A stretch of DNA of 42,917 bases, taken from the NCBI GenBank assembly GCA_945902075.1, contig CAMDMA010000032.1:1-42917 (forward strand), written 5' to 3'. Within the stretch, counting starts at the first letter, position 1, and the number at the start of each line of letters is the position of its first letter. Below the pieces are notes generated by a model. It saw only the letters and a program-made list of their open reading frames with translations. It searched no databases and was not told the DNA's origin. Made by a program: the position numbers and the translations under genes. Below are positions 3,160 to 42,503 of this stretch, one piece after another. The DNA is from Candidatus Kuenenia stuttgartensis (lineage in GTDB: Bacteria; Planctomycetota; Phycisphaerae; Phycisphaerales; SM1A02).

Positions 3160-3885
3160 TTACTGCTTGGGAGTCGTGGGAGTCGTGGGCGCGGCCGTCG
3201 GCGCAGCGACCGGCGCGGCCGTCGGCGCAGCGACCGGTGCGGATTTCGGCGCCGCGAGCTTGTCGGCATCGTCCTTCGAGATCATTTCAACCTTCGTCAC
3301 CAGCATGTCTTCGACGGGCCAGTCGCCCATACCATTTTTGGTGCCGCGCTTTGCCGTTGCGATTGCATCAACGACTTCCATGCCTGAAATGACCTTGCCG
3401 AACACGGCGTATCCCGCGCCACCCGAGATGGGCTGATCGAGCATGTCGTTGTCCTTCAGACTGATGAAGAACTGGCTTGATGCGCTCTTGGGGTTGTTGG
3501 TGCGTGCCATCGACAGCGTTCCACGCTTGTTCTTCAGGCCGTTCTGCCACTCGTTGTCGATAGGTGCCTTGGTCTTTTTCTGCTCGCCCGCTGGCGTGAA
3601 GCCGCCGCCCTGGATCACAAAGCCCGGCACCACGCGATGGAACACCGTGCCGTCGAAGAATCCGTCCTTGATGTAGCCAACGAAGTTCTCAACGGTGATC
3701 GGCGCCTTTGCGCGGTCGAACTCGATGACGATGTCGCCCTTGTTCGTACGCATCACCGCAAACTCGGCGGCGGCAGTTGCGGCCGGAGCCTTAGGCGCGG
3801 TGGCTGCGGGAGCGGTTTCCTGTGCGGTCGCAACGGAAGCGAAGAGGAGTGCGGCGGAGAAGACGGTTGTGGCGATCAGGCGCAT
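3160..3885 (-). CDS. Exported peptidyl-prolyl isomerase (cyclophilin type)
   Basis: Cis-trans prolyl isomerase of 241 residues, predicted to act outside the cytoplasm. A signal peptide (MRLIATTVFSAALLFASVATA) is followed by an Ala/Pro-rich linker and a single cyclophilin domain at about residues 45-210. Family motifs include FHRVVPGFVIQGG, the SSQFFI segment and the AVFGKV strand. The C-terminus is a low-complexity Ala/Pro/Thr tail containing an 8-residue repeat. I chose the ATG at 3885 because it opens the signal peptide and has AAGGAA 5 nt upstream; the frame continues to 4203 but would place the signal peptide internally. A TATCAT box about 32 nt upstream could be its -10. A second cyclophilin is encoded at 21434-22903. 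Confidence 0.93.
   Translation of the reverse strand: MRLIATTVFSAALLFASVATAQETAPAATAPKAPAATAAAEFAVMRTNKGDIVIEFDRAKAPITVENFVGYIKDGFFDGTVFHRVVPGFVIQGGGFTPAGEQKKTKAPIDNEWQNGLKNKRGTLSMARTNNPKSASSQFFISLKDNDMLDQPISGGAGYAVFGKVISGMEVVDAIATAKRGTKNGMGDWPVEDMLVTKVEMISKDDADKLAAPKSAPVAAPTAAPVAAPTAAPTTPTTPKQ
3188..3235. repeat. 24-bp tandem repeat in the cyclophilin tail
   Basis: Two identical 24-bp units (3188-3211 and 3212-3235) encode the repeated octapeptide APVAAPTA near the cyclophilin C-terminus. A unit length divisible by 3 keeps the frame, so copy-number change would alter only tail length. Confidence 0.8.
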
Positions 3886-4013
3886 ACTGGTTCCTTGGTT
3901 TGGTGCGAAGGGCGGCGATGATATCCCAACCTCTCGGCGCCTGCCGTTCCGGGCGCTTGTGCGCGATCGCGACAAAGTGGTTCCGCGCAGAGCCCGACTC
4001 GCATAGCATCGGG

Positions 4014-4040
4014 CCCCCTGGGGGAGGTGCATGCCTCCCC
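4014..4040 (+). promoter_or_regulatory. GC-rich inverted repeat before resB
   Basis: GGGGAGG at 4021-4027 pairs with CCTCCCC at 4034-4040 across a 6-nt loop, and CCCC just upstream (from about 4014) can compete for the same G run. It lies in the leader of the cytochrome c biogenesis operon, after a TAGCAT box at 4004-4009. The ATG at 4031 would lie in the loop and have its purine run only 2 nt away. This could be a leader hairpin; function is unknown. Confidence 0.4.
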
Positions 4041-4063
4041 GCATTTTCAAGCAGAAGCACCGC

Positions 4064-6580
4064 ATGACGACGCCACGATCCGAACCCGCGCGCGCAGCTG
4101 AATCTGGAACCGACTCTGGTGCGCCCTGGTGGCGCAAAGGACTCGTCGGCGCGACATTCGACCTCTTCTCGAATGTTCGCTTTGGTATTTGGCTTCTTGT
4201 CATTCTCTTCGTGTACTCGTCGGTGGGTTCCGCCGGAATCGTGTACCCCCATTCATGGAATATCTTCTCCGCCGACGCATGGTCGCATGATCAGTTCCGC
4301 CAATGGCGTGGACTTGAGATGACCGAGTTCGAGTGGTTCCACTGGTGGCCGTTCGATCTGATGATGATTCTCATCGCGCTGAACATCACGGTCACGACAC
4401 TGCGCCGCATTCCATTCAAGAGTGTGAACTACGGTGTCTGGACGATCCACACCGGGATTCTCGTGCTGATTGTCGGGTCGTTCATTTATTTCGGCACGAA
4501 GATTGAGGGTGATACGCCCGTCGCACGCCGCAAGGTTGTCGCATCGTTTGACGTGCTGGCGGCGGATGGCTCTGTGACGAAAGAGAGTGCAGAGTTTCTT
4601 GCGGCGCCGGGCACGCGGCTCGTCACAGGTGCTGGAGCGGCTGAGACAGTCTTTGAGGTCACATCGATCGATCCCGCGTGGGAATTGCTCACCGGTGACG
4701 ACAAGGGAAAGCGAACCTACAGCGTGACGGTTGCGGTCACGCGCGGCGGCAAGCGTTTCATGCGCCAACTGCTCGCGGGCTATCCAGCGCTCACGGAAGA
4801 CCTGATTTTTACCGACGATCCCGCGCAACCAATGAAGCGCGCGATCAAGGAGATTGGCAAGCCTATCTACGACGAGTCGCTGGTGATGAGCCTCGACTAC
4901 GAGGCGCAAGATTGGTTCTATCTTCGAAACGAGCTCGTCAAGTCGTGGGCGCTGTATGTGCGCCGCCCGGGCGATACGACTTGGACCGAGCGTCGCATTG
5001 ACGGGCTCCCGCTCTACAACGATTACATCGGCGATCGCGATTTGGTGTTTCAGTCGGGCGGCGATGAGTTGCTCCCCCTCGACCCGCTTGATATCCCCGT
5101 GCGCGCGACGGATGACGCCGATCCGTTTCCCGATGTGGATCTCCGCGTCACGGGATTCCTTCGTTACGCGATTGGTCGAAGTCGATATGCCGACGGATCA
5201 AACGGGGCTGAGCTGAATCCCGTCGCGATGGTGACGGTTTCGAGCGATCGCGGTCAGAAGGCCGACTATCGACTCGTCGCCCGCGATCCTGATCGCGCAA
5301 CAGCCGATGGCGGACTGTTGCGATTCGCGGCGATCGGTACAGAGGCGGAGTTTGAACAACTGTTGCGTCAGCCAACCATCGTCATTCGTATTCCAGCGCA
5401 GAACATCGAGATCCGCGAGGAGATTCGTGATGTTGCCGCGGCAAACCCCGAGGCGCCGTTTGTAGAAATCGCTGGAACCGAGTCGGAAGGGAAAGCCGCC
5501 TACGCCTATCGCGTGATGAATGTCCAGGATGATGTTCCGGTCGCGGGCACCAAGGTGTCGCTTGCAATTCTTGAGGTTCGCACGCCGAAGGGTCTCTTCC
5601 GACGCTGGGTATTCAGTGATCCTTCGCTCACGCGCGACGTGGTGCAGGCGGATGCTTCCGACGCGCACGGTGCGCCGAAGATGCAGGATGATTCCATCGA
5701 AATGTCGTACGAGCCCGGCAATGGACTTGCACTTGTCACGCTCGCGCATGGACCTGAAGAGGGGCGCATGCGGCTCGTGTCATCGATCGGCGCGAAGGCA
5801 AGCGTTGTCGAGATCAAAGAGCGTGAGACAACGCCGCTCGCTGGCGGAGTGACGGTGCGCGTCGAAGACTTGATTCCGCGCGCAGTGCTTGAGTCGAAGC
5901 CATTGGTCATCCCTCGCGAACAGCGGGAGCGCGATGCGATGGAAATGTTCTCGCAGATTCTCCTCGAAGCTCCGGGCGCGCCGGGTCAGTGGTTGCAGTT
6001 CAACCGTTGGGTGTTCGATGCTCCGGAGCGCGTGTTGCGAAAGTCGCCCTACGCGCCGAGCACGGTTCGGCTCACGGATGGGCGCGAGATGGAAGTGTTG
6101 TTCTCGCGTCAGCGCGAGCCGTTGCGCGCGGAAGTTTCGCTTGAGCAGTTCGTCCTAACCTCGCATATCGGTGGCTTTACCGGGGCGCAAGGTTCGATTC
6201 GTGATTACACGAGCGAGATTCGGTTTCGCGATCCGTCGAGCGCATGGAGCGAGCCGGTGTCGGTGAGCGTCAACAGTCCGGTCGAGCACAATGGGCTCTG
6301 GTTCTTCCAAGCGCAATGGGATCCGCCGGATAGCGCTGGTGCTGAGGGTGAGCGCGCGAGCCTCGGGCTCAACTACACCGTGCTCGGTGTTGGCAACCGA
6401 AATGGCGTCTACATCCAGTTGCTTGGTTGCTGTATCGCCGTTGCGGGGATGATGTATGCGTTCTATGTGAAGCCGGTGATCAAGCGTCGTCGGCAAGAGG
6501 CTGTGTTGGCAGGTTTGTCAAAGAACGGTGCGGGTTCGAACGTTCGTTCGATGAAGCCTGAACGAAAGGTCGCTCGATGA
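4064..6580 (+). CDS. resB: Cytochrome c biogenesis protein, ResB type
   Basis: Membrane component of System II cytochrome c maturation, which with CcsA/ResC carries haem across the membrane and attaches it to apocytochrome c. The 838-residue protein has three N-terminal membrane segments (around WLLVILFVYSSVGSAGI, FDLMMILIALNITVTTL and WTIHTGILVLIVGSFIYF), then a very large extracytoplasmic region, and a final membrane helix near GVYIQLLGCCIAVAGMMYAF with a basic cytoplasmic tail. It is much longer than typical ResB because of the extracytoplasmic region. The start is uncertain: ATG at 4031 lies in a hairpin loop with a purine run too close, so I prefer 4064. The stop overlaps the ccsA start by 4 bp. 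Confidence 0.88.
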   Translation: MTTPRSEPARAAESGTDSGAPWWRKGLVGATFDLFSNVRFGIWLLVILFVYSSVGSAGIVYPHSWNIFSADAWSHDQFRQWRGLEMTEFEWFHWWPFDLMMILIALNITVTTLRRIPFKSVNYGVWTIHTGILVLIVGSFIYFGTKIEGDTPVARRKVVASFDVLAADGSVTKESAEFLAAPGTRLVTGAGAAETVFEVTSIDPAWELLTGDDKGKRTYSVTVAVTRGGKRFMRQLLAGYPALTEDLIFTDDPAQPMKRAIKEIGKPIYDESLVMSLDYEAQDWFYLRNELVKSWALYVRRPGDTTWTERRIDGLPLYNDYIGDRDLVFQSGGDELLPLDPLDIPVRATDDADPFPDVDLRVTGFLRYAIGRSRYADGSNGAELNPVAMVTVSSDRGQKADYRLVARDPDRATADGGLLRFAAIGTEAEFEQLLRQPTIVIRIPAQNIEIREEIRDVAAANPEAPFVEIAGTESEGKAAYAYRVMNVQDDVPVAGTKVSLAILEVRTPKGLFRRWVFSDPSLTRDVVQADASDAHGAPKMQDDSIEMSYEPGNGLALVTLAHGPEEGRMRLVSSIGAKASVVEIKERETTPLAGGVTVRVEDLIPRAVLESKPLVIPREQRERDAMEMFSQILLEAPGAPGQWLQFNRWVFDAPERVLRKSPYAPSTVRLTDGREMEVLFSRQREPLRAEVSLEQFVLTSHIGGFTGAQGSIRDYTSEIRFRDPSSAWSEPVSVSVNSPVEHNGLWFFQAQWDPPDSAGAEGERASLGLNYTVLGVGNRNGVYIQLLGCCIAVAGMMYAFYVKPVIKRRRQEAVLAGLSKNGAGSNVRSMKPERKVAR

Positions 6581-15300: not shown

Positions 15301-16281
15301 ATGAGCCTGTCACTTCCTCCCTTTTCCAGTGGCGCAAAGCCAAAGTCCCTTGTGGTTGTCACCGAGCACCTCGCGGACGAGGCTGCGGAATGGCTTGCGA
15401 GCCGATTCGAAGTTCTGCGCGCGGGAGCTTCGGAGCCTCGCTTCGTGGAGGCCGCTCGTGATATTGAGGCACTCGTCGTCCGAACCTACACCCAGGTCGA
15501 TGCCGCGCTTCTCGAAAAGCTGCCGAGGCTTCGCGTCGTCGGGCGGGCCGGGGTGGGGATCGACAACATCGACGTCGCCGCATGTCGTGCGCGCGGCGTG
15601 CAAGTTGTCTCGACCCCGGACGCGAACACGCAGGCCGTCGTCGAGTACGTGGTGTGCCTTCTCGCAGATGCGTTGCGCCCGCGCATGTTTCTTGATGAAG
15701 CGGTCTCGAAATCCGAGTGGGATCTCCTCCGCGAGGATGTCGTCGGGCTCTGGCAGATGGATGAACTTGTCCTCGGCATTCTCGGGCTCGGCCGGATTGG
15801 TCGCCGTGTGGCGGAGGTTGCGCGCGCGATCGGGTTCACTGTGCTGTACCACGACATTGCCGCGATTCCTGAACCGTTTCGTCACGGCGCGGAATCGGTG
15901 AGCCTTGAGCGCTTGCTTGTTGAGAGCGATGTCCTCACGGTGCATATCGATGGTCGACCCACGAACCGCGGATTTCTCGGGAGCGAGCGCATCGCATTGC
16001 TCCGTCCGGACGCCATCCTCATCAACACCTCGCGCGGCTGTGTGATCGATGCCGCCGCGCTCGCCGAGTGGCTCCGCGGGAATCCGGCCGCTGCCGCACT
16101 TCTCGATGTGCATGAACCGGAGCCGTTCGACGCGTCGTCGCCGCTCCTCGGTCTTGCGAACGCGCACTTGGCGCCGCACCTTGCGAGCCGCACGATGACG
16201 GCCATGGAAAACATGAGTTGGGTTGTGCGCGATGTGGCGGCCGTACTCGAGGGTCGTTCGCCGCGCTATCCGGCCTGGTGA
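15301..16281 (+). CDS. D-isomer-specific 2-hydroxyacid dehydrogenase (SerA-like, no ACT domain)
   Basis: NAD-dependent oxidoreductase of 326 residues. The Rossmann nucleotide-binding motif GLGRIG is at 162-167, with Asp185 at the end of the second strand predicting preference for NAD. The catalytic set is Arg245 (INTSRG), Glu272 (DVHEPEP) and His293 (LAPHLAS). Sequence style is closest to D-3-phosphoglycerate dehydrogenase, the first enzyme of serine synthesis, but it lacks the C-terminal regulatory domains of long SerA. Another 2-hydroxyacid substrate is possible. The last 16 bp overlap the end of the convergent recQ gene. Confidence 0.88.
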   Translation: MSLSLPPFSSGAKPKSLVVVTEHLADEAAEWLASRFEVLRAGASEPRFVEAARDIEALVVRTYTQVDAALLEKLPRLRVVGRAGVGIDNIDVAACRARGVQVVSTPDANTQAVVEYVVCLLADALRPRMFLDEAVSKSEWDLLREDVVGLWQMDELVLGILGLGRIGRRVAEVARAIGFTVLYHDIAAIPEPFRHGAESVSLERLLVESDVLTVHIDGRPTNRGFLGSERIALLRPDAILINTSRGCVIDAAALAEWLRGNPAAAALLDVHEPEPFDASSPLLGLANAHLAPHLASRTMTAMENMSWVVRDVAAVLEGRSPRYPAW

Positions 16282-18635
16282 CTGGGATCGGCATTTGCGG
16301 CAGGCGAATGACGCAGCGCGAGGAACATGCGAAGTTTCCCGTATGCGACGCGTTCGCCGAGGTGATCAAACACCGGACGGAGAGCGACGCTCCCACAGTG
16401 CGCAAACGCCTCAGCGATTTCTGCTTCCTCGGGATCGGTGAAGAACTCGCGTGGGTCGAGGTATTCGCCGCTCTCTGCGGCGAGAGCGAGGTGCGATTCG
16501 ATCGTGCTGACAGCGAGGCCACGGATGACTCCTGTGTCATCGACGCCGTGACCCTCGCGAAAGATGCGAAGCGTCTCACGGACCGTCGCGCTGAGTGACG
16601 GGCTTGACGCAGGCTTTGGGCGGAGAGTCGCACGATCCTCATTTTTTGCCGGGGATTGTGGACTTTTTGATGCAAAGGTCTTCGTGCCATGGACGCGCGT
16701 CCATGCTTCGATCGCGGCGGAGAAGACTGCGCCAAAATCGTTGAACCGTTTTTCGCCGATGCCCGGGATCGCAAGAAAGTGAGCACGCGTTGCTGGGTAG
16801 CCGCGCGCCATGAAGCGCAGCGAGACATCGGAGAAAATGACGTACGGCGGCACGTTGCGTTCGTCGGCGACTTGTTTCCGGAGCGTGCGGAGGTGTTCGA
16901 AGAGTTCGTCGTCGCACTCAATGGTGTCGGTGCGATTCGCCTTGCGGCTCAAACTCGGATCCATCGCTGCAGGCGTGATCGCCTTCGGGACGACGATCGC
17001 GTTCCGGTTGCGAAGTGCATCAGCGCCACGCTCCGTCACGTGCACAACAGCGAGACCGTCCGCGCCAAGGTCGAGGAGGCCTTCCTGGAGTAACTGCCGT
17101 CCGAGCGAAATCCACGCTGGACGCGCTCGGTCGCGACCGAGTCCGTAGGTCGAGAGCGACTCGTGATTCCAACGACGGATCTTTTCGGTGTTTGCTCCGC
17201 AGAGCACTTCCGCGATGTGCTGGAGCCCGACATTGAAGCCGCTCTTCTGCTGCACCCGGATCACACAACTCAGGAGCTTCTGCGCGTCGGTCGTGACATC
17301 CTCAAGCTCGCGGGGCGTAAGGCAGTTGTCGCACGCGCCGCAGCCTGTAGGTTCAGCGCCGCAGCCTGTAGGTTCAGCGCCGCAGCCTGTATCGGGCGCC
17401 GCGTCACAAGTGACTCCGTACTGCTCGCCAAAATAGCCAAGCAACGCCACTCGCCGGCATTGCGCCGACTCTGCAAACGACACCATGCGATCCAACTGCG
17501 CGCGCGAAACTGCCCGTGCATCGAGATCAGAGATTTCGTTCAGGAAATGCAGATGCTTCGCGACATCGCCGCGCGAATAGAGGAGGAGGCACTCCGCGGG
17601 GAGCCCGTCGCGACCTGCGCGGCCGGTCTCTTGGTAGTACCCCTCGATGTTTTTCGGGAGGTCGGCGTGCACAACGAAGCGAACATTCGGTTTGTTGATT
17701 CCCATACCGAACGCGATGGTCGCGCAGACGATTCTGGTTTCGTCGCGCAGAAACGCATCTTGGTTGCGGGCGCGTTCAGCGGCGTCAAGTCCGGCGTGGT
17801 AAGGACGCGCCGCGTGGCCAGCGTGGCGAAGAGCTGTTGCCATCGATTCCGCACCCTTGCGCGACTGGCAATAGACGATGCCGGAGTCGTTCGGCCGCGA
17901 CTCGACAAGCGCGAGAAGTTGTGCCGCTGGTTTGTCGGAGCCAACACCCTTTGCAACCACGCGGTAGTTGAGATTGGGTCGGTCAAAGCTCGCGACAAAG
18001 ACTTCGGGATCGCGAAGTCGTAGCTGCGCCGCGATATCCGCGCGCACGCGTTCAGTCGCAGTCGCGGTGAGCGCGATGATCGGAGCATCCGGTAGGAGCG
18101 CGCGCACGGAGGCGATTTGCCGATATTCCGGCCGAAAATCATGGCCCCATTCGCTGATGCAGTGTGCCTCGTCCACCGCGATCGCCTCAACGCGCCATCG
18201 GCGGAGCTGCGTAAGAAACTCGCTCGATACCAGTCGTTCTGGTGCGACATAGAGGATTCGAAACGCGCCCTCATCAAGTCTCTTCATCCGCTCTCTCAGT
18301 TCGGCACTGTCGAGAGTGGAGTTGATGAATGTCGCAGCCACGCCTGCCGCCTGCATCTGGTCGACTTGATCCTTCATTAGCGCGATGAGCGGACTTGCAA
18401 CCACCGTCAAACCGGCGCGCACCAGCGCTGGTAACTGGTAGCAGAGGCTCTTCCCAGCGCCCGTCGGAAGAATCGCCACCACATCGCGACCCGCGAGCGA
18501 GGCATCCATGATCTCGCGCTGCAGCGGGCGAAATGTGTCATAGCCGAAGACGCGTTTAAGCTCGGCGGGCAGCGGATCAACGCGCGTCGCAAGGCCGCTC
18601 TCGGTTGGGGAGAAATTGTGTGGCTCGTCCTTCAT
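16266..18635 (-). CDS. recQ: ATP-dependent DNA helicase RecQ
   Basis: 3'-5' DNA helicase of 789 residues for recombination and replication-fork repair. Walker A is PTGAGKS with Lys62, and the DEAH box is 154-157 within VDEAHCISEWGHDFRPEY. The second RecA fold ends in YYQETGRAGRDG. A zinc module then starts at Cys392 and ends at CGACDNC (Cys431, 434, 437), followed by a winged helix, an HRDC domain (about 590-660) and a C-terminal helix-turn-helix region (about 690-780) found in long RecQs. The zinc module is odd: a 7-residue unit TGCGAEP is repeated, adding Cys409, 417 and 424. A 26-bp palindrome lies 25 nt upstream. A weak TAATCC is 6 nt before the ATG. Confidence 0.97.
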   Translation of the reverse strand: MKDEPHNFSPTESGLATRVDPLPAELKRVFGYDTFRPLQREIMDASLAGRDVVAILPTGAGKSLCYQLPALVRAGLTVVASPLIALMKDQVDQMQAAGVAATFINSTLDSAELRERMKRLDEGAFRILYVAPERLVSSEFLTQLRRWRVEAIAVDEAHCISEWGHDFRPEYRQIASVRALLPDAPIIALTATATERVRADIAAQLRLRDPEVFVASFDRPNLNYRVVAKGVGSDKPAAQLLALVESRPNDSGIVYCQSRKGAESMATALRHAGHAARPYHAGLDAAERARNQDAFLRDETRIVCATIAFGMGINKPNVRFVVHADLPKNIEGYYQETGRAGRDGLPAECLLLYSRGDVAKHLHFLNEISDLDARAVSRAQLDRMVSFAESAQCRRVALLGYFGEQYGVTCDAAPDTGCGAEPTGCGAEPTGCGACDNCLTPRELEDVTTDAQKLLSCVIRVQQKSGFNVGLQHIAEVLCGANTEKIRRWNHESLSTYGLGRDRARPAWISLGRQLLQEGLLDLGADGLAVVHVTERGADALRNRNAIVVPKAITPAAMDPSLSRKANRTDTIECDDELFEHLRTLRKQVADERNVPPYVIFSDVSLRFMARGYPATRAHFLAIPGIGEKRFNDFGAVFSAAIEAWTRVHGTKTFASKSPQSPAKNEDRATLRPKPASSPSLSATVRETLRIFREGHGVDDTGVIRGLAVSTIESHLALAAESGEYLDPREFFTDPEEAEIAEAFAHCGSVALRPVFDHLGERVAYGKLRMFLALRHSPAANADPSHQAG
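17335..17397. repeat. 21-bp tandem repeat in the RecQ zinc module
   Basis: Two identical 21-bp units (17335-17355 and 17356-17376) and a third that matches for 15 bp (17377-17391) encode the heptapeptide TGCGAEP/TGCGA. They lie exactly between the first and last zinc-ligand cysteines of RecQ and preserve the frame. Confidence 0.9.
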
Positions 18636-18760: not shown

Positions 18761-20569
18761 TTATGGCTCACTTTTCGTCGCAAGCTTCGAGCGTGCGATC
18801 CATGCGTCGACGTTGCGCTCAAGTTGGTCGAGGGGAATGGGGCCATTGAGGAGGACGGCGTCGTGAAACGATCGAATGTCAAACGCCGCGCCGAGTGCCG
18901 CTTCCGACTTTGTGCGCAGCCGACGAATCGTGAGCTCGCCAATCTTGTATCCGCATGCTTGTCCAGGCCAGCCGATGTAGCGGTCGACCTCGTTCACGAT
19001 GTTGAGTTCGGACAACGCGGTATTCGCCTTCATGAAGTCAATCGCCCGCTGTCGCGACCATCCAAACGCGTGCATTCCCGGGTCGACGACCAGCCTGCAT
19101 GAGCGCCACATTTCATAGAGCAGCCGACCAAAGTCGTCGTAGGGGTCCTCAAAAAACCCCATTTCAATCCCGAGTCGTTCGGCATAGAGCGCCCATCCCT
19201 CTGTGAAAGCGGTGGAACTAAGGTCCTTACGAAACTCACGCATGCCCTCAAGTTCCTGCGCGAGCGCAATCTGAAAGTGGTGGCCAGGAACCGCCTCGTG
19301 GAGCGAAAGCGGGATGAACTCGTAGGTTGGCCGCTGGTCGAGCGCGTAGGTGTTTGCGTAGAACCAGCCGGGTTCGCCGCGTTCCGGACTTCCTGGCTGG
19401 TAGTACGCGGTGGTCTGCGCAGGCGCCATGAACTTGGGGATCTCTCGCACGCCATAGGTCAGGCGTGGGCAGGTTGCGAACAGGCTCGGCAACTTCGGAT
19501 CGATACGCTTACAGACCTCGCGGTAGCGCGCGAGAAGATCGTCCGCGGTTGTGCAGTAGAAGCGGGGATCGCTGCGAAGAAACGCGATAAACGCGGCGAA
19601 CCGCGCATCATCGGTCATGGCCGCGCGCGCCGGATCGGCGGCGTACCAGTCGGTTCGCGCGATGACCTGCATCATTTCAGCACGAATGCGGGCGACTTCT
19701 TGAAGTCCAGTCTCGTGAATTTCCTTGGCGGTGAGATTGGTTGTGGTGTGCGATTTGAGTTCGTATGCGTACCACGCAAGTCCATTTTTCATCTCGCTCG
19801 CGGCGATCGAATCACGGCAGCGGGGGAGATATTCGTCCACGAAAAACGCAGCGAACATGGTGAGCGCGGTGTCGATCGGATCGAGTCGCGTCTCGAAATC
19901 AGCGAGTAATGCTGCGCGCTGTTCGGGCGTGATTGACTTCGGAAGCGAGGCGAACGGCTTTCGCAACGAATCCCTGATGCTCTGCCGCGCTGCGCGGATC
20001 TGTGCGGGCACTTGTTCCACAGTGACCTTCGGCGGCATCACGCCCGCTTCGATTCCCGCGCGCATCACCTCGATCGTTCCGAGGAGCGAGCCAGGCACTC
20101 CGGCGAGCCTGCGCACATAGGCTTCGTAATCGTCGTAGTCGGCGAACGTCCCAAGGTCGCCCATTTGCGCGATCTCTTGGTGCGGCCCAAATCGCCCACC
20201 GACAGGCATCATCCAACCACCAAACGCGAAGCCATCAATTGACAACGCGAGGTCACGCGTCAGCAGCGCAAGGTCCAAACGGTCTCCATCGGAGAGCGTC
20301 GCGGGATCGACCCCGCGGAGATCACTGAGGAAGATCTCGAGTTGCGCCTCGCGTTTGTGGACGCCTGCGAGCGAGGTATCAGTCAACTCGCCTGCACGCA
20401 GTTCAACGCCGCGGCGGAGCGCCATCTCTGGGTAGACCGTGAGTCGCCATGCTTCGTACTCATCGGCAAGTTGTCGAAAGCGATCCGTGGCCGGACTGAG
20501 CTCGTCCGCGACGGCGATCGTTGGGGACAGCGCAAGAAGAAGTGCCAGGAGTGCGAGGCGGGCGGGCAT
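18761..20569 (-). CDS. Exported DUF885 family protein (putative metallopeptidase-like)
   Basis: Protein of 602 residues belonging to the DUF885 family, whose members are mostly uncharacterised and resemble zinc peptidases. The recognisable motif is HEAVPGHH in the C-terminal half, with a downstream EGWALYAERLG segment; together these could supply metal ligands and a catalytic Glu. A signal peptide (MPARLALLALLLALSPTIAVA) predicts export. I chose the ATG at 20569 because it opens the signal peptide and has a TACGCT box 6 nt upstream; the frame is open to 20701 but overlaps the divergent ACT gene there. Substrate and activity are unknown. Confidence 0.88.
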   Translation of the reverse strand: MPARLALLALLLALSPTIAVADELSPATDRFRQLADEYEAWRLTVYPEMALRRGVELRAGELTDTSLAGVHKREAQLEIFLSDLRGVDPATLSDGDRLDLALLTRDLALSIDGFAFGGWMMPVGGRFGPHQEIAQMGDLGTFADYDDYEAYVRRLAGVPGSLLGTIEVMRAGIEAGVMPPKVTVEQVPAQIRAARQSIRDSLRKPFASLPKSITPEQRAALLADFETRLDPIDTALTMFAAFFVDEYLPRCRDSIAASEMKNGLAWYAYELKSHTTTNLTAKEIHETGLQEVARIRAEMMQVIARTDWYAADPARAAMTDDARFAAFIAFLRSDPRFYCTTADDLLARYREVCKRIDPKLPSLFATCPRLTYGVREIPKFMAPAQTTAYYQPGSPERGEPGWFYANTYALDQRPTYEFIPLSLHEAVPGHHFQIALAQELEGMREFRKDLSSTAFTEGWALYAERLGIEMGFFEDPYDDFGRLLYEMWRSCRLVVDPGMHAFGWSRQRAIDFMKANTALSELNIVNEVDRYIGWPGQACGYKIGELTIRRLRTKSEAALGAAFDIRSFHDAVLLNGPIPLDQLERNVDAWIARSKLATKSEP

Positions 20570-20575
20570 CGGGGA

Positions 20576-20581
20576 AGCGTA
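20576..20581 (-). promoter_or_regulatory. Putative -10 box of the DUF885 gene (leaderless)
   Basis: TACGCT on the minus strand ends 6 nt before the ATG at 20569. The same hexamer precedes trpE. No Shine-Dalgarno is present. Confidence 0.45.
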
Positions 20582-20663
20582 CCGCATCAGATTTTCGTCA
20601 CGCACTCTGATCCACTGATGTCGCGGCCTTGTATTCGCACTGCTTCGCCGCGCGTTGATCGGG

Positions 20664-20669
20664 TAGCAT
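20664..20669 (+). promoter_or_regulatory. Putative -10 box of the ACT gene (leaderless)
   Basis: TAGCAT ends 9 nt before the ATG at 20679. The 9-nt gap (CTTCCTTCC) contains no Shine-Dalgarno. The same hexamer occurs upstream of resB. Confidence 0.5.
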
Positions 20670-20678
20670 CTTCCTTCC

Positions 20679-21149
20679 ATGAGCATGATGCCCCCGGACA
20701 CGGAAATCGGTTACGCACCCCCAATGGTGCGGCATTTCAGCATCTTTCTCGACAACCGCGTCGGCAAGCTCCTCGAGTTACTCGGCGGGCTTGATGAAGA
20801 GGGCAACGTCGCGGTTCGCGCGATTTCAATTCTGGACAGTTCGGACTATGCCGTGATTCGCCTGCTTGTCGATAAACCGGCGACGGCGCGCGCGATTCTC
20901 GACAAGCACCAGTTCGCCGTTTGTGAGACCGGAGTCCTCGTTGCCGAACTCAGTACCGGACATGAGCTCCATCACCTCTGCAAGTTTCTGCTTGCGGCAG
21001 AGCTCAATATTCATTTCGCGTATCCGACCATGCCACGGGCTTCTGGCGAGGCGACAGTGGTACTCTCGACCGATGACAACACGCTCGCGGGCCAAATCCT
21101 GCGACGCAAGGGTTTTCGCCTCCTCGGCGAAAGCGATCTCGAACTCTGA
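20679..21149 (+). CDS. Tandem ACT-domain protein
   Basis: Small cytoplasmic protein of 156 residues that appears to be two ACT-like folds, about residues 17-85 (VRHFSIFLDNRVGKLLELL, then a strand-rich AVIRLLVDK) and about 88-155. ACT domains bind small ligands, usually amino acids, to regulate enzymes. The arrangement resembles stand-alone planctomycete ACT proteins and distantly the small subunit of acetolactate synthase, but no partner enzyme is adjacent, so the ligand and target are unknown. It is followed after 45 bp by the CDGSH gene, possibly in the same transcript. Confidence 0.82.
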   Translation: MSMMPPDTEIGYAPPMVRHFSIFLDNRVGKLLELLGGLDEEGNVAVRAISILDSSDYAVIRLLVDKPATARAILDKHQFAVCETGVLVAELSTGHELHHLCKFLLAAELNIHFAYPTMPRASGEATVVLSTDDNTLAGQILRRKGFRLLGESDLEL

Positions 21150-36115: not shown

Positions 36116-37608
36116 CGTGACCCTCGTTTCGAGAACCACTCGCGGAAACTCTCACCTGTCGCAACGCCGAGATCGCGCGACTGCGTCCAGCCAGCGCCCG
36201 GGCCGGGCACGCGCGTCAGCCACGCGCGTTCGTCGCGAGAGTCCTTTTGCCCGAGCATGCGAGCATGCAGTCGCACCGCACCGATCGCCATGCGGAAGAG
36301 CGTGGGGCGTTCTGCAAGCCAGCGCCAAAGCGCGAGCGTTGCGCCCTCAGACTTCGGCGAAAGCCCACGCTCGCGCAGCCGCGTGCGATCATGCAAGAGA
36401 AACTTCGGGATATCGATCTTGACCGGGCACGCTTCATAGCACGCGCCGCAGAGCGAACTCGCGCGCGGGAGATCGGGATAGTTTGCGAGGCCGGCACCAC
36501 TTTGGGAAGCGTTCGCGCCACCCTGCGCGCGTTCGAGCTCAGGTGTGAGCACGGCGCCAATTGGACCGGCGTACATCGAGCCGTACGAATGGCCGCCGAC
36601 CTTGCGGTACACCGGACACGCGTTGAGGCACGCGCCGCAGCGGATGCAGCGGAGGAGATCGCGTTTTTCGCTTGCGAGCACACCCACCCGCCCAGCGTCG
36701 ACGAGCACAAAGTGAAGTTCCTTCGGCCCGCCATGCTCGCCCGCGCGACGCGGTCCGCAGACGAAACTCGTGTAGATCGTGAGCGGCTGCGCCGTGCCGC
36801 TGCGCGCAAGCAGCTTGAGGAAGGGTGCCAAGTCGCGCGCGCCACGAATGAGTTTCTCGATCCCGACGAACACGATATGAACTGGTGGGCCGCCGACCGA
36901 GAGATCGAAGTTGCCCTCGTTTGTGCAGATGACGGCGGAGCCTTCATCTGCGAGCAGAAAGTTCGCACCCGAGACGCCAATGTCGGCGGCGCGGTAAAGG
37001 CCGCGCATGTGCGCGCGCGCAATCATCGTGAGTTCGGTCGGATCTTCGGTGTAGCGCGCGCCGAGTTCGCGCACGAAACTTTTCGCCGTCGCCACGCGGT
37101 CTTTATGGATCATCGGCGTGACGATGTGCGACGGTGCGTCGCCGTCGATCTGGAGGATGAACTCGCCGAGATCGGTCTCGAGCGTCTTGATGCCGGCCGC
37201 CTCGAACGCCGGAAGCAGGCCGATCTCCTCGGTGACCATCGACTTGCTCTTCACGCACGACTGTGCTCGACCGTGGGCTTGGTGCGCGCGCGCGATCGAG
37301 AGTGCGATGTCGCACGCCTCGCGGCCGGTGGTCGCGGCATGGACGGTCGCGCCGGATTTCTCGGCGTTTGCGATGAAGCGTTCGAGCAGTTCGTCGAGGT
37401 GGTCGAGCGCGTACTGCTTCGTGTCGCGGGCGACGGTGCGGAGCGCGTCGTACTCGGCGCCGAAGTCGCGGTCGAAGATGCCGCCGCGCTGGGTGTCCTT
37501 GAGGTGCGTCGCGTTGCCGACGAACTGCTGGAGCTTGAGATCGCGCACAGCCTCGCGCGCGCGCGGCTTCATGTCGAAGGGAAGTGCGGGGGCGATGAGC
37601 GGGTTCAT
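36112..37608 (-). CDS. lutB: Iron-sulfur LUD-domain protein, LutB type
   Basis: Ferredoxin-like electron carrier and LUD-domain subunit of the lactate utilisation complex, 498 residues. The N-terminal LUD domain (about 70-300) includes GVSGANFLLADEGSAVICTNEGN. Cys321, 324, 327 and 331 (CIRCGACLNACP) form one 4Fe-4S site, and Cys387, 390 and 394 (CGACYEACP) part of a second. It overlaps lutA and lutC by 4 bp on either side, so the three products should be made in matched amounts. Confidence 0.94.
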   Translation of the reverse strand: MNPLIAPALPFDMKPRAREAVRDLKLQQFVGNATHLKDTQRGGIFDRDFGAEYDALRTVARDTKQYALDHLDELLERFIANAEKSGATVHAATTGREACDIALSIARAHQAHGRAQSCVKSKSMVTEEIGLLPAFEAAGIKTLETDLGEFILQIDGDAPSHIVTPMIHKDRVATAKSFVRELGARYTEDPTELTMIARAHMRGLYRAADIGVSGANFLLADEGSAVICTNEGNFDLSVGGPPVHIVFVGIEKLIRGARDLAPFLKLLARSGTAQPLTIYTSFVCGPRRAGEHGGPKELHFVLVDAGRVGVLASEKRDLLRCIRCGACLNACPVYRKVGGHSYGSMYAGPIGAVLTPELERAQGGANASQSGAGLANYPDLPRASSLCGACYEACPVKIDIPKFLLHDRTRLRERGLSPKSEGATLALWRWLAERPTLFRMAIGAVRLHARMLGQKDSRDERAWLTRVPGPGAGWTQSRDLGVATGESFREWFSKRGSR

Positions 37609-38441
37609 GCTTTTCCCCCATTCGGGGCCCCGTGCTTTTCCCCATTCGGGGCCCCGTGCTTTCCCCCATTCGGGGCCCCTGACTCCTGTACCTCCATGAG
37701 GCCGAGTGATTCCGCGAGCGCTTCCGCGGGCGAGATCACGCGCAGCGCGACGCCCTTTCGGTGTGCAAGGCCAGCGAGGTGCGCGGCGCAGCCCGTGTCG
37801 CTTGCGACGAGTGTGGTCGCGCCGGTCGACGCGACGTGTGCGAGTTTCTCTTCGCCAAGCGCAGTCGAGACCTCAGGGAACTGTGTGCTGAACATGCCGC
37901 CGAAGCCGCAGCACTGCGTCATGTCAGGAAGCTCGCGGACATCGCCGCCACATGCCGACCGCAAGAACGGCTCGGTGCAGCCGTGGCGGTGGATGCCGCG
38001 GAGGTGGCAGGCGTCGTGGCAGGTGAGCGGCGCAGTGGACGCGCGCGGACTTGACTTTGCGCGAAGCGTCGCCGGGTCGATGCCGAGTTTCGTTTCGAGG
38101 AACTCGATGAGTTCGAAGGTCTTCGCGGCAAGCGCGTCGACCGCCGCACGATCGCGCGAGCCGTCGGCGAAAAGCCCCGCGTACTTCTCGCGCACGACCG
38201 AGCAGCAAGAGCCGGACGGCGTGACAACCGCGTCATAGGGAGCGAAGACCTCGGTCATCCGTCGCGCAAGCAGGGCGGCGTCGCCGGGAAGGCCGTTCGA
38301 GAGCATCGGCTGGCCGCAACAGGTCTGCGCTGTGGGCAGCTCGACGGTGACGCCGCAGTGCTCAAGAACAAGCACCGTGGCCTTCAAGGCGCGCGGCGCG
38401 AGTGCTTCGGCAAGACAGGTTGTGAAGAGCGCGACGCGCAT
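37605..38441 (-). CDS. lutA: CCG-domain Fe-S oxidoreductase, LutA type
   Basis: Cysteine-rich CCG protein of 278 residues, first gene of the lutABC-type operon. The two CCG motifs are CCGQPMLSNG and CCGFGGMFS; other cysteines are in SGSCCS, CHDACHLRG and TGCAAHL. It resembles LutA and the cysteine-rich part of glycolate oxidase GlcF. The C-terminus is an unusual repeat, HGAPNGGK three times, from a 24-bp DNA repeat that runs up to the lutB start. The ATG has a TACAGT box 7 nt upstream and no strong Shine-Dalgarno. Confidence 0.93.
   Translation of the reverse strand: MRVALFTTCLAEALAPRALKATVLVLEHCGVTVELPTAQTCCGQPMLSNGLPGDAALLARRMTEVFAPYDAVVTPSGSCCSVVREKYAGLFADGSRDRAAVDALAAKTFELIEFLETKLGIDPATLRAKSSPRASTAPLTCHDACHLRGIHRHGCTEPFLRSACGGDVRELPDMTQCCGFGGMFSTQFPEVSTALGEEKLAHVASTGATTLVASDTGCAAHLAGLAHRKGVALRVISPAEALAESLGLMEVQESGAPNGGKHGAPNGEKHGAPNGGKA
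37608..37679. repeat. 24-bp tandem repeat at the lutA-lutB junction
   Basis: Three near-identical 24-bp units (37608-37631, 37632-37655, 37656-37679) encode the GAPNG(G/E)K tail of LutA. Each contains GGGGCCCC and a CCCC-ATTC-GGGG inverted repeat, so several hairpins could form in the mRNA right before the lutB start codon. Confidence 0.9.
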
Positions 38442-38486: not shown

Positions 38487-40280
38487 TCAGTACGCGCCCC
38501 AGTTGCCGAGGAAGATCGAGAGGTCCGCGCCGCCGATCACGCCGTCGCCGTTGAGGTCGCCGAGTGGGGGATTGATGACGCCCCAGATCGAGAGCAGCAC
38601 CGCGAGATCCGCGCCGCCGACCGTGCCGTCGAGGTCGAAGTCTCCGCGCGCGACCTCGCAGTCGTCGAGCACGCCGTCGGCATCTTTGTCTTGCGCGCCG
38701 GTTGCGATTTCGCACGAGTCGAGCACGCCGTTCGCGTTGCAGTCGGCACTTCCCGCGTTGAGTTCGCAGCCGTCAAGCGCGCCGTTCTGGTTGCAATCAA
38801 GCGCTGGGTTCGCGGCGATCTCGCAGACATCGAGCGCGATGTCGGCGTCGCAATCCTTTGACGGGTCGAGCAGGATCTCGTAGGTATCGGGGATCGAGTT
38901 GCCGTTGCAGTCGCCCTGGCACGCATCGGGGATGCCGTTCGCGTCGACATCGGTCGCTGCACCTGAGGCGATGTCGCAGGAATCGATCTTGCCGTTGGCG
39001 TTGCAGTCGAGGGCGGTGCCTTGTGCGAGTTCGTACGCATCGGGCAGGCCGTTCGTGTTGCAGTCGAGTTCGCACGAATCGGGGCGGCCGTTGGCGTTGA
39101 TGTCGGCAGCTGTACCTGAGGCGATGTCGCAGGAATCGAGCACGCTGTTGCCGTTACAGTCGGTGAAGACGTTGATCTCGCAGCCGTCGTCGGTGCCGTT
39201 GTTGTTGCAATCGACGAACACCCTGTCGTAGCACAGCGAGATTTCGCAGAGGCCGTCGGTGCATTGGCTTGCGCTCACGAGTGGTGACGCTTCAAGCCGC
39301 ACGTTGAGCGTGCCGTCTGCGATGAGTGCCGTGAGTTGCTTGAGGGGAATGGTGACGGTCGCGGTGTCGGGCGCGGTGGGGCAGTCGTTTGCGCCATTCA
39401 CGAACAGGAGATTCGGCTGCAGTGCTCCGTCGAGCTTGAGGCTGAGGTACTCGCTCGCGAGGTTGAGATCCGCGCGCACGCGGATGGTGAGCGTCGCACT
39501 CGCCGCAGCTGCGGGAAGATTCGTGAACGCGAACTCGTGTGGCGTACCGGCGCCGATCGCGCCGAGGTTGCCGGAGTTGCGCGAGATGCTGGGCGTGGTG
39601 CAGAGTTTGACGACGGTGTGGTCTCCGCCCGCCGCGATCGCGGAGACTGGCCCGAGGTCCGCGGGGGTGTTGCACTGGCCGTAGTTGTTCCGTCCCCAGC
39701 AGGCGACTGTTCCGTCGTTCTTCAAGGCGACGGTGTGGAAGAAGCCCGCTGCGATCGCGGTGACGGTGCCGAGGTTCGCGGGGGTGTTGCACTGGCCGTA
39801 GTTGTTCCGTCCCCAGCAGGCGACTGTTCCGTCTTGCTTGAGGGCGACGGTGTGGAAGTAGCCCGCCGCGATCGCGGTGACTGGCCCGAGGTTCGCGGGG
39901 GTGCTGCACTGGCCGTAGTCGTTCCGTCCCCAGCAGGCGACTGTTCCGTCTTGCTTGAGGGCGACGGTGTGGTCTCCGCCCGCCGCGATCGCGGAGACTG
40001 TGCCGAGGTTCGCGGGGGTGTTGCACTGGCCGTCGTCGTTGTGTCCCCAGCAGGCGACTGTTCCGTCTTGCTTCAAGGCGACGGTGTGGTAGTAGCCCGC
40101 TGCGACTTTCACGATGTTGTTCGAGAGGTTGTCGATGTTGCTGAAGCCTGTGATGCCCCAACCGGCGACGCCTTGAGCCTGCGCCTCGCGCGGACCGAAG
40201 CACGCCGCGATCGCGACCACCGCCACCACGAACGCCGACCACATCGAACCAAGCTTCGCGATTGAACTTCGCTTTGTCAT
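38487..40280 (-). CDS. Secreted RCC1-repeat protein with calcium repeats and dockerin-like tail (paralog A)
   Basis: Exported protein of 597 residues, function unknown. In order: a signal peptide ending AQA at about residue 36; four 39-residue RCC1-like repeats (55-210, pattern AAG-xx-HTVALKxDGTVACWGxNxxGQC) and a partial fifth; a beta-rich module (about 225-330); a run of DCNxNGxxDxCE calcium-binding repeats (about 335-535); and a dockerin-like pair of EF loops (DLDGTVGGAD and DLNGDGVIGGAD) ending WGAY. The start has GAGGAG about 7 nt upstream. The neighbour at 40456-42366 is a close paralog with one more RCC1 unit. Probable surface or matrix protein; ligand unknown. Confidence 0.92.
   Translation of the reverse strand: MTKRSSIAKLGSMWSAFVVAVVAIAACFGPREAQAQGVAGWGITGFSNIDNLSNNIVKVAAGYYHTVALKQDGTVACWGHNDDGQCNTPANLGTVSAIAAGGDHTVALKQDGTVACWGRNDYGQCSTPANLGPVTAIAAGYFHTVALKQDGTVACWGRNNYGQCNTPANLGTVTAIAAGFFHTVALKNDGTVACWGRNNYGQCNTPADLGPVSAIAAGGDHTVVKLCTTPSISRNSGNLGAIGAGTPHEFAFTNLPAAAASATLTIRVRADLNLASEYLSLKLDGALQPNLLFVNGANDCPTAPDTATVTIPLKQLTALIADGTLNVRLEASPLVSASQCTDGLCEISLCYDRVFVDCNNNGTDDGCEINVFTDCNGNSVLDSCDIASGTAADINANGRPDSCELDCNTNGLPDAYELAQGTALDCNANGKIDSCDIASGAATDVDANGIPDACQGDCNGNSIPDTYEILLDPSKDCDADIALDVCEIAANPALDCNQNGALDGCELNAGSADCNANGVLDSCEIATGAQDKDADGVLDDCEVARGDFDLDGTVGGADLAVLLSIWGVINPPLGDLNGDGVIGGADLSIFLGNWGAY
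39651..40118. repeat. 117-bp tandem repeats (four units), RCC1-like
   Basis: Four 117-bp units encode 39 residues each of an RCC1-like blade, within paralog A. Units are very similar in DNA, varying mainly at the codons around the HTVALK and CWG motifs. Confidence 0.85.
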
Positions 40281-40455
40281 CGTGCAACTCCTCAGATCGA
40301 ACCTAATCGAACACTGGCGAACCTTCCGCGATTTCAACGCTCGCGAAAGTCTCGCCGATGCGTTCACGATTTGCTTCGCGGAATGGCAAACAGTTTTGAA
40401 ATCGTCAGTGTTTCGCACCCGAGAATCGGCTCCCCACAGTGCGCGTACCCGTGGA

Positions 40456-42366
40456 TCAGTACGCGCCCCAGTTGCCGAGGAAGATCGAGAGATCGGCACC
40501 ACTGATGATGCCGTCGCCGTTGAGGTCGCCGAGTGGTGGATTGATGACGCCCCAAATGGAGAGCAGTACCGCGAGGTCGGCGCCGCCGACGGTGCCATCG
40601 AGGTCAAAGTCGCCGCGCGCGAACTCGCAGTCGTCGAGCACGCCGTCGGCATCTTTGTCTTGCGCGCCGGTTGCGATCTCGCACGAGTCGAGCACGCCGT
40701 TCGCGTTGCAGTCGGCGCTTCCCGCGTTGAGTTCGCAGCCGTCAAGCGCGCCGTTCTGGTTGCAATCAAGCGCTGGGTTCGCGGCGATCTCGCAGACATC
40801 AAGCGCGATGTCCATGTCGCAATCCTTGGAAGGATCGAGCAGGATCTCGTAGGTGTCGGGGATCGAGTTGCCGTTGCAGTCGCCTTGGCACGCATCGGGA
40901 ATGCCGTTCGTGTCGATGTCGGTCGCGGTACCCGACGCGATGTCGCAGGAGTCAATCTTGCCGTTCGCGTTGCAGTCGGGCGCTGTGCCTTGCGCGAGTT
41001 CGTACGAATCGGGCAGGCCGTTCGTGTTGCAGTCGTACTCGCAGCTGTCGGGGCGGCCGTTGGCGTTGATGTCGGTAGCGGTACCCGAAGCGATGTCGCA
41101 CGAATCGAGCACGCTGTTGCCGTTACAGTCGGTGACCGCGTTGATCTCGCAGCCGTCGTCGGTGCCGTTGTTGTTGCAATCGACGGGCACCGTGTCGTAG
41201 CGCAGCGAGATCTCGCAGAGGCCGTCGGCACACTGGCTTGCGCCGACAAGCGGTGACGCCTCGAGCCGCACGGTGAGTGTGCCGTCTGCGACGAGTGCCG
41301 TGAGTTGCTTGAGGGGAATGGTGACGGTCGCGGTGTCGGGCGCGGCGGGGCAGTCGTTTGCGCCGTTCACGAACAGAAGATTCGGCTGCGTGGTTCCGTC
41401 GAGTTTGAGGCTGAGGTATTCACTCGCAAGGTTGAGATCCGCGCGCACGCGGATGGTGAGCGTCGCACTGGCCGCTGCTGCGGGGAGATTGGTGAACGCG
41501 AATTCGCGCGGGGTTCCGGCGCCGATCGCGCCGAGGTTGCCGGAGCCACGCGAGATGTTGGGCGTGGTGCAGATCTTGGCGACGGTGTGGTAGAAGCCCG
41601 CCGAGATCGCGGTGACTGGCCCGAGGTTCGGAGGCGTGTTGCACTGGCCGTAGTCGTTGTTTCCCCAGCAGGCGACGGTGCCGTCGTTCTTCAAGGCGAC
41701 GGTGTGCTCGCCGCCCGCTGCAATCGCGGTGACTGGCCCGAGGTTCGCAGGCGTGTTGCACTGGCCGAAGTTGTTGTATCCCCAGCAGGCGACGGTGCCG
41801 TCGTTCTTCAAGGCGACGGTGTGCACGCCGCCCGCCGCGATCGCGGTGACTGGCCCGAGGTTCGGAGGCGTGTTGCACTGGCCGGAGTAGTTGTATCCCC
41901 AGCAGGCGACGGTGCCGTCGTTCTTCAAGGCGACGGTGTGCTCGCCGCCCGCTGCAATCGCGGTGACTGTGCCGAGGTTCGGAGGCGTGTTGCACTGGCC
42001 GAAGTAGTTGTATCCCCAGCAGGCGACGGTGCCGTCGTTCTTCAAGGCGACGGTGTGGTAGTAGCCCGCCGCGATCGCGGTGACTGGCCCGAGGTTCGCA
42101 GGCGTGTTGCACTGGCCGGAGTCGTTGTATCCCCAGCAGGCGACGGTGCCGTCGTTTTTCAAGGCGACGGTGTGGTAGAGGCCCGCTGCGACCTTCACGA
42201 TGTTGTTCGAGAGGTCGTCGATGTTGCTGAAGCCAGTAAGGCCCCAGCCTGCGACGCCTTGCGCCTGCGCGTCGCGCGGACCGAAGCACGCCGCGATCGC
42301 GACCACCGCCACCACGAACGCCGACCACATCGAACCATGCTTTGCGATTGAACTTCGCTTTGCCAT
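40456..42366 (-). CDS. Secreted RCC1-repeat protein with calcium repeats and dockerin-like tail (paralog B)
   Basis: Exported protein of 636 residues and a close paralog of the next gene downstream. The domain order is the same: signal peptide (cut after AQA, about residue 36), five RCC1-like 39-residue repeats (55-249) and a partial sixth, beta-rich module, DCNxNG calcium repeats, and a dockerin-like tail ending WGAY. The 39-residue size difference from paralog A equals exactly one RCC1 unit. The ribosome-site region (GAGGAG and flanks) is identical to that of paralog A, so the duplication included it. The 175 bp between the two genes hold no gene. Function unknown. Confidence 0.92.
   Translation of the reverse strand: MAKRSSIAKHGSMWSAFVVAVVAIAACFGPRDAQAQGVAGWGLTGFSNIDDLSNNIVKVAAGLYHTVALKNDGTVACWGYNDSGQCNTPANLGPVTAIAAGYYHTVALKNDGTVACWGYNYFGQCNTPPNLGTVTAIAAGGEHTVALKNDGTVACWGYNYSGQCNTPPNLGPVTAIAAGGVHTVALKNDGTVACWGYNNFGQCNTPANLGPVTAIAAGGEHTVALKNDGTVACWGNNDYGQCNTPPNLGPVTAISAGFYHTVAKICTTPNISRGSGNLGAIGAGTPREFAFTNLPAAAASATLTIRVRADLNLASEYLSLKLDGTTQPNLLFVNGANDCPAAPDTATVTIPLKQLTALVADGTLTVRLEASPLVGASQCADGLCEISLRYDTVPVDCNNNGTDDGCEINAVTDCNGNSVLDSCDIASGTATDINANGRPDSCEYDCNTNGLPDSYELAQGTAPDCNANGKIDSCDIASGTATDIDTNGIPDACQGDCNGNSIPDTYEILLDPSKDCDMDIALDVCEIAANPALDCNQNGALDGCELNAGSADCNANGVLDSCEIATGAQDKDADGVLDDCEFARGDFDLDGTVGGADLAVLLSIWGVINPPLGDLNGDGIISGADLSIFLGNWGAY
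41620..42204. repeat. 117-bp tandem repeats (five units), RCC1-like
   Basis: Five 117-bp units within paralog B, homologous to the four-unit array at 39651-40118. KNDG is found in all five units here, whereas three of the four units of paralog A have KQDG. Confidence 0.85.
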
Positions 42367-42503
42367 CGTGCAACTCCTCAGATCGAACACGGACGAACCT
42401 TCGCCGATTTCTACTATGCTCGAATTCGCGCCGAAACCTCGGGCTCACGAACCGAGATTTGTGAAAATGCCTCGCGAATCCAGTTTCAAGCCGTCGGGCG
42501 GCG

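Follow-up and report, generated by a model that had tools for sequence, protein, structure and literature searches.

The window, by which we mean the whole 42,917-bp stretch of DNA analysed, carries on its reverse strand an intact recQ gene (16266..18635), an open reading frame from ATG that Pfam and NCBIfam assigned to a RecQ-family DNA helicase of 789 aa. The product matched the RecQ equivalog profile TIGR01389 with 706 bits in the NCBIfam profile search, the cut-off being 640. Pfam recognized a DEAD domain (PF00270, residues 36-197, 18045..18530), a Helicase_C domain (PF00271, residues 239-344, 17604..17921), the RecQ zinc-binding module RecQ_Zn_bind (PF16124, residues 356-439, 17319..17570), an RQC winged-helix domain (PF09382, residues 441-551, 16983..17315), an HRDC domain (PF00570, residues 576-642, 16710..16910) and a C-terminal HTH_40 domain (PF14493, residues 684-772, 16320..16586), all encoded on the reverse strand. 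The match to the zinc module spanned profile positions 2-66 of 66 and scored 45.5 bits, with a cut-off of 25. The marks of RecQ family membership were thus found throughout the protein: the RecA-like DEAD and Helicase_C domains with RecQ motif residues invariant in a 60-row alignment, the Cys4 zinc module with four invariant cysteines, and the RQC winged helix and HRDC domains. Judged by this full domain set and the equivalog score, the sequence is that of an ordinary bacterial RecQ DNA helicase, a family characterized by ATP-dependent 3'-5' unwinding. An antisense ORF (17163-18023) overlaps recQ.

The zinc module and its tandem repeat

Within the zinc module, ligands 1 to 4 are Cys393 (codon 17457..17459), Cys432 (17340..17342), Cys435 (17331..17333) and Cys438 (17322..17324), all on the reverse strand and all invariant among the 60 aligned RecQs. 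The translation contained three further cysteines between ligands 1 and 2, namely Cys410 (17406..17408), Cys418 in repeat unit 1 (17382..17384) and Cys425 in repeat unit 2 (17361..17363), again on the reverse strand. All three fall within 22 residues of ligand 2, and the same alignment listed none of them as invariant or nearly invariant. An earlier sequence-only reading of this DNA had pointed out the same residues, which do exist, but had numbered them one too low (392, 409, 417 and 424 for 393, 410, 418 and 425). Its spacing between ligands 1 and 2 was borne out, with 39 from Cys393 to Cys432 and 17 in E. coli RecQ when counted in the 1oyw alignment. By the presence of its ligands the zinc site looks complete; a broken zinc module was rejected, as all four ligands are present and invariant.

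Between ligand 1 and the CxxCxxC knuckle, Tandem Repeats Finder located a perfect 21-bp tandem repeat of 2.7 copies and 57 bp (17335..17391, reverse strand, 100% match), confirming the claim that a 21-bp repeat adds TGCGAEP units at this place. The repeat product consisted of two TGCGAEP units (residues 416-422 and 423-429), identical in their DNA, followed by the native TGCGA (430-434). This third, partial copy opens the CxxCxxC knuckle and holds ligand 2, Cys432. The added units copy the ligand-2 segment and so carry cysteines. Cys410 is a separate matter: it lies upstream of and outside the repeat, and copying of the ligand-2 segment does not account for it. No source of the EP residues of TGCGAEP was visible in the relatives.

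When the window was shuffled 40 times with its dinucleotides preserved, perfect tandem tracts (at least 2 copies, period 6-120) reached 21 bp at most, and the real tract measures 57 bp. We therefore rejected a chance repeat. A dispersed or mobile element was rejected as well. A search of the 3.31-Mb, 70-contig assembly with up to 2 mismatches returned the two tandem copies as the sole matches to the 21-mer, which is confined to the recQ tract.

The loop in models and in other RecQs

E. coli RecQ (PDB 1oyw/1oyy) could be aligned in sequence with residues 26-552 of the window RecQ (1oyw, E 9.6e-145). The top Foldseek hits were bacterial RecQ cores, and their E-values started at 4.6e-48, although the TM-scores by query length of the leading eight rows were only 0.40-0.51. 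E. coli RecQ and Cronobacter sakazakii RecQ (4tmu), which held the top ranks, share with the window RecQ a four-Cys zinc site with CxxCxxC, but the sequence alignments showed no counterpart of its loop cysteines in either. The Deinococcus radiodurans RecQ core (PDB 4q47/4q48) likewise has a Cys4 site, with a spacing of 17 and without the repeat; the published account describes a tetrahedral zinc site formed by Cys381, Cys398, Cys401 and Cys404 (PMC4163472).

The AlphaFold2 model of the window RecQ, built with 60 sequences, had a mean pLDDT of 87.8 and a pTM of 0.69. Block means around the ligands were high (94 for residues 391-400 and 92 for 431-440), while the loop at residues 411-428 (17352..17405, reverse strand) was predicted to be disordered, with pLDDT below 50. 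A control model of the repeat-free RecQ from a same-family genome (G004) retained the same flanking helices, joined by a short loop whose block mean was 72. The model suggests that the repeat loop is probably disordered, a low pLDDT being also a possible result of few homologues.

A search of the genus found a RecQ match in 9 of 16 genomes, including that of the window; the other 7 had no match at the cut-off and are uninformative. The ten nearest relatives read comprised eight same-genus RecQs, with spacings of 18-23, and two from genus g17, with spacings of 21 and 18. None of the ten contained an extra loop cysteine or the repeat. The nearest, from same-family genomes G031 (L092) and G004 (L007), share 73-74% identity and the same clade with the window RecQ; unlike it, they have spacings of 21 and 23 and neither extra cysteines nor a repeat. 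The sequence-only reading had called for such an alignment, and had named absence of the repeat from all close relatives, combined with a lack of effect on zinc binding, as telling against a role. The first half of this is what the ten relatives showed.

We then surveyed the loop more broadly. The sample was not random: it combined the best 80 of 594 named candidates, the loci from the relatives searches, and 100 further matches, of which 29 came from the family search and 71 were phylum-search matches without a locus, mainly from the top of the list with some rows skipped. Modules were parsed at 250 of 261 loci, the window's own included, with L001 and L002 excluded as duplicates of the window. 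The 11 loci dropped were ten with a different spacing between ligands 2 and 3 and one (L174) without the upstream motif. Some rows are near-duplicates, such as L178 and L190, and in L162 ligand 1 was parsed as the second Cys of CRC. Among the 249 other parsed modules of this survey, which includes the best 80 of 594 candidates, the spacing was at most 18 in 202, at least 24 in 16 and at least 39 in 3. An extra cysteine 2 or 6 residues past ligand 1, within the helix, occurred in 10 of the 249, and a cysteine at least 12 residues past ligand 1 in none, which marks the composition of the window loop as unusual. Of all the sequences read, that of the window genome alone has the cysteine repeat.

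In the 16 modules with long spacing, the added residues came after the YF or HF end of helix 1. The insertions in a Limisphaerales RecQ (L013, spacing 39), a Verrucomicrobia RecQ (L014, 48) and a Variovorax RecQ (L091, 45) enter the zinc module where that of the window RecQ does, but differ from its repeat in being of other sequence and free of cysteine. Further long cysteine-free inserts were present at this point in L100 and L217. Long inserts at one and the same point in other RecQs indicate that the loop tolerates length; natural insertions here reach about 30 residues (spacing 48, the usual value being 18).

A different variation was noted in ten same-phylum RecQs (L200, L204, L210, L211, L220, L226, L239, L240, L245 and L247), where the spacing between ligands 2 and 3 was altered from CxxCxxC by anything from one added residue to a longer insert.

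Origin of the repeat and fate of its cysteines

Tandem repetition was common elsewhere in the genome. Perfect tandem tracts of 40 bp or more numbered 25 in a sample of 442,917 bases, made up of the window and the first 20 kb of 20 contigs, whose starts may be repeat-enriched. Ten of these tracts reached 57 bp or more, and 4 of the 25 fell within the opening 502 bases of a single contig. The period was divisible by 3 in 18 of the 25 tracts. By hand count, 17 of these 18 fell within open frames 150 codons or longer, compared with 2 of the remaining 7, where open frames run from stop to stop and are unproven as genes, and a period divisible by 3 itself favours an open frame. Two further ORFs of the window carry repeats as well. 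An ORF with a CCG domain (Pfam CCG; 37605-38441, reverse strand), which we take to be LutA-like, ends in a C-terminal in-frame 24-bp repeat encoding GAPNGGKH-type units, and a cyclophilin ORF (Pfam Pro_isomerase; 3160-4203, reverse strand) carries a C-terminal in-frame 24-bp repeat encoding APVAAPTA-type units. Together with the tracts of the genome sample, these repeats indicate that tandem repetition within genes is ordinary here. The window also contains two adjoining, closely similar ORFs with RCC1 repeats (Pfam RCC1_2) and 117-bp tandem arrays (38487-42390, reverse strand). The two, 38487-41249 and 40456-42390, overlap when taken from the first start, and the pair looks like a gene duplication.

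We favour, with a probability of about 0.85, the view that strand slippage recently expanded the repeat in a length-tolerant and probably disordered loop of an otherwise ordinary RecQ, with nearly neutral effect. A single zinc would be bound by Cys393, Cys432, Cys435 and Cys438, as it is by the E. coli and Deinococcus enzymes, and the stretch from the first ligand helix to the CxxCxxC knuckle would accept changes in length. In this lineage, slipped-strand replication may have copied in tandem a short stretch with the native TGCGA at its end, most likely recently, to give two added heptapeptide units, or 14 residues. The reading frame survived because the unit of 21 is a multiple of 3. The TGCGAEP units would bulge as a flexible surface loop, and their cysteines would be by-products of ligand-2 copying, most likely unused; the expansion itself would be close to neutral. 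Slippage, proposed by the sequence-only reading as a source of variation, is well supported as the origin of the repeat by the DNA-identical units, the period divisible by 3, the many similar repeats in the genome and the absence of the repeat from the ten nearest relatives read. The matches listed from the open-licence literature contained no account of a repeat insertion or slippage in the RecQ zinc loop.

The earlier proposal that the additional thiols allow alternative zinc coordination or redox switching did not find support. In its full form, the helicase would be tuned by the extra cysteines, acting either as a metal site (an alternative one or a second one) or as a redox switch through a disulfide. 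The closeness of three thiols to ligand 2 is in its favour, as is the reactivity of exposed cysteines in RecQ helicases: in BLM, according to one report, Cd2+ acting on solvent-exposed cysteines blocks DNA binding and drives the formation of inactive multimers, and the sensitivity to Cd2+ is lower by about one order of magnitude in E. coli RecQ, which has fewer such cysteines (PMC4872126). By analogy, additional thiols at the surface could make a RecQ somewhat more sensitive to metals. However, all four canonical ligands are in place and do not vary in the alignment, lone cysteines 7 apart form no extra CxxC knuckle, and the segment is predicted to be disordered. Conserved extra thiols, as expected of a redox- or metal-switched protein, were found neither in the ten nearest relatives nor in any of the 249 other loops parsed in the survey that includes the best 80 of 594 candidates. 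The same report describes the zinc of BLM or E. coli RecQ as needed for folding but later dispensable for DNA binding and helicase activity (PMC4872126), and according to another, zinc in D. radiodurans RecQ seems dispensable for structural stability (PMC4163472). Where zinc is dispensable once the protein has folded, its release makes a poor switch, and a regulated switch at the zinc site of the window RecQ is poorly motivated. We consider such a metal or redox site very unlikely, and the sequence comparisons make any functional role of the extra cysteines unlikely. A related idea, that an accessory site for metal or thiol chemistry is evolving in the heptad loop, where copies of the ligand-2 segment compete for or store metal beside the zinc knuckle, with the number of units setting the response to metal or oxidant, appears very improbable as well. 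If the extra thiols were active, they would show how a short slippage event can bring a repair enzyme under a new influence of metal or redox state. Under the slippage reading the case is instead a caution, as the copying of a ligand segment can leave conspicuous cysteines near a metal site as a by-product.

Two other explanations concern the repeat itself. An artefact of assembly or strain mixture, in which the unit number or the whole repeat is unreal, might be suspected from an assembly in 70 contigs, but the 57-bp tract is shorter than ordinary short reads, the reading frame is preserved, and similar repeats occur elsewhere in the genome sample; we give this only a slender chance. A perfect repeat within a repair helicase also brings to mind a contingency-type locus, variable in length and under selection, whose unit number tunes RecQ or the mutation rate. 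A 21-bp unit, however, is unable to switch the frame on and off, 2.7 copies are few, and similar repeats occur in unrelated genes (such as the cyclophilin and CCG-domain ORFs of the window), and we consider this reading very unlikely too.

Placement of the RecQ and its neighbourhood

A quick, midpoint-rooted tree of 170 RecQs grouped the window protein, its genus and genus g17 with three Verrucomicrobiota at a support of 100, and the 47 other same-family RecQs of the tree fell elsewhere. Random thinning had left out of this tree the RecQs of G271 and G240, the nearest from the same phylum outside the family (56% identity). A more careful tree of 59 rows, also midpoint-rooted, included both. 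In it the 11 rows from the genus and g17 formed one clade (100/100), the g17 rows interleaving with those of the window's genus. Three Verrucomicrobiota joined this clade in a group (100/99) that belonged in turn to a larger set, mostly of Verrucomicrobiota (98/93). G271 and G240 took another part of the Verrucomicrobiota set, beside two Chthoniobacterales/Spartobacteria rows (94/93), and all 10 other same-family rows stood apart (100/100). Nesting among Verrucomicrobiota, apart from the RecQs of the same family, suggests that the resident RecQ of the lineage of the genus and g17 was probably replaced by horizontal transfer, and the branching suggests that such replacement occurred perhaps more than once in the phylum. 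The open-licence literature yielded no paper on horizontal transfer of RecQ that involved both Planctomycetes and Verrucomicrobia. The tree placement leaves the odds of the explanations for the repeat unchanged.

Directly upstream of recQ, the window carries a DUF885 gene (18761-20701, reverse strand). Less than 400 bases of sequence lie upstream of recQ at L007 and L092, and L093 has no DUF885 gene in about 1500 bases. The gene was directly upstream of recQ in 7 of 8 other same-genus loci (L004-L006 and L008-L011).
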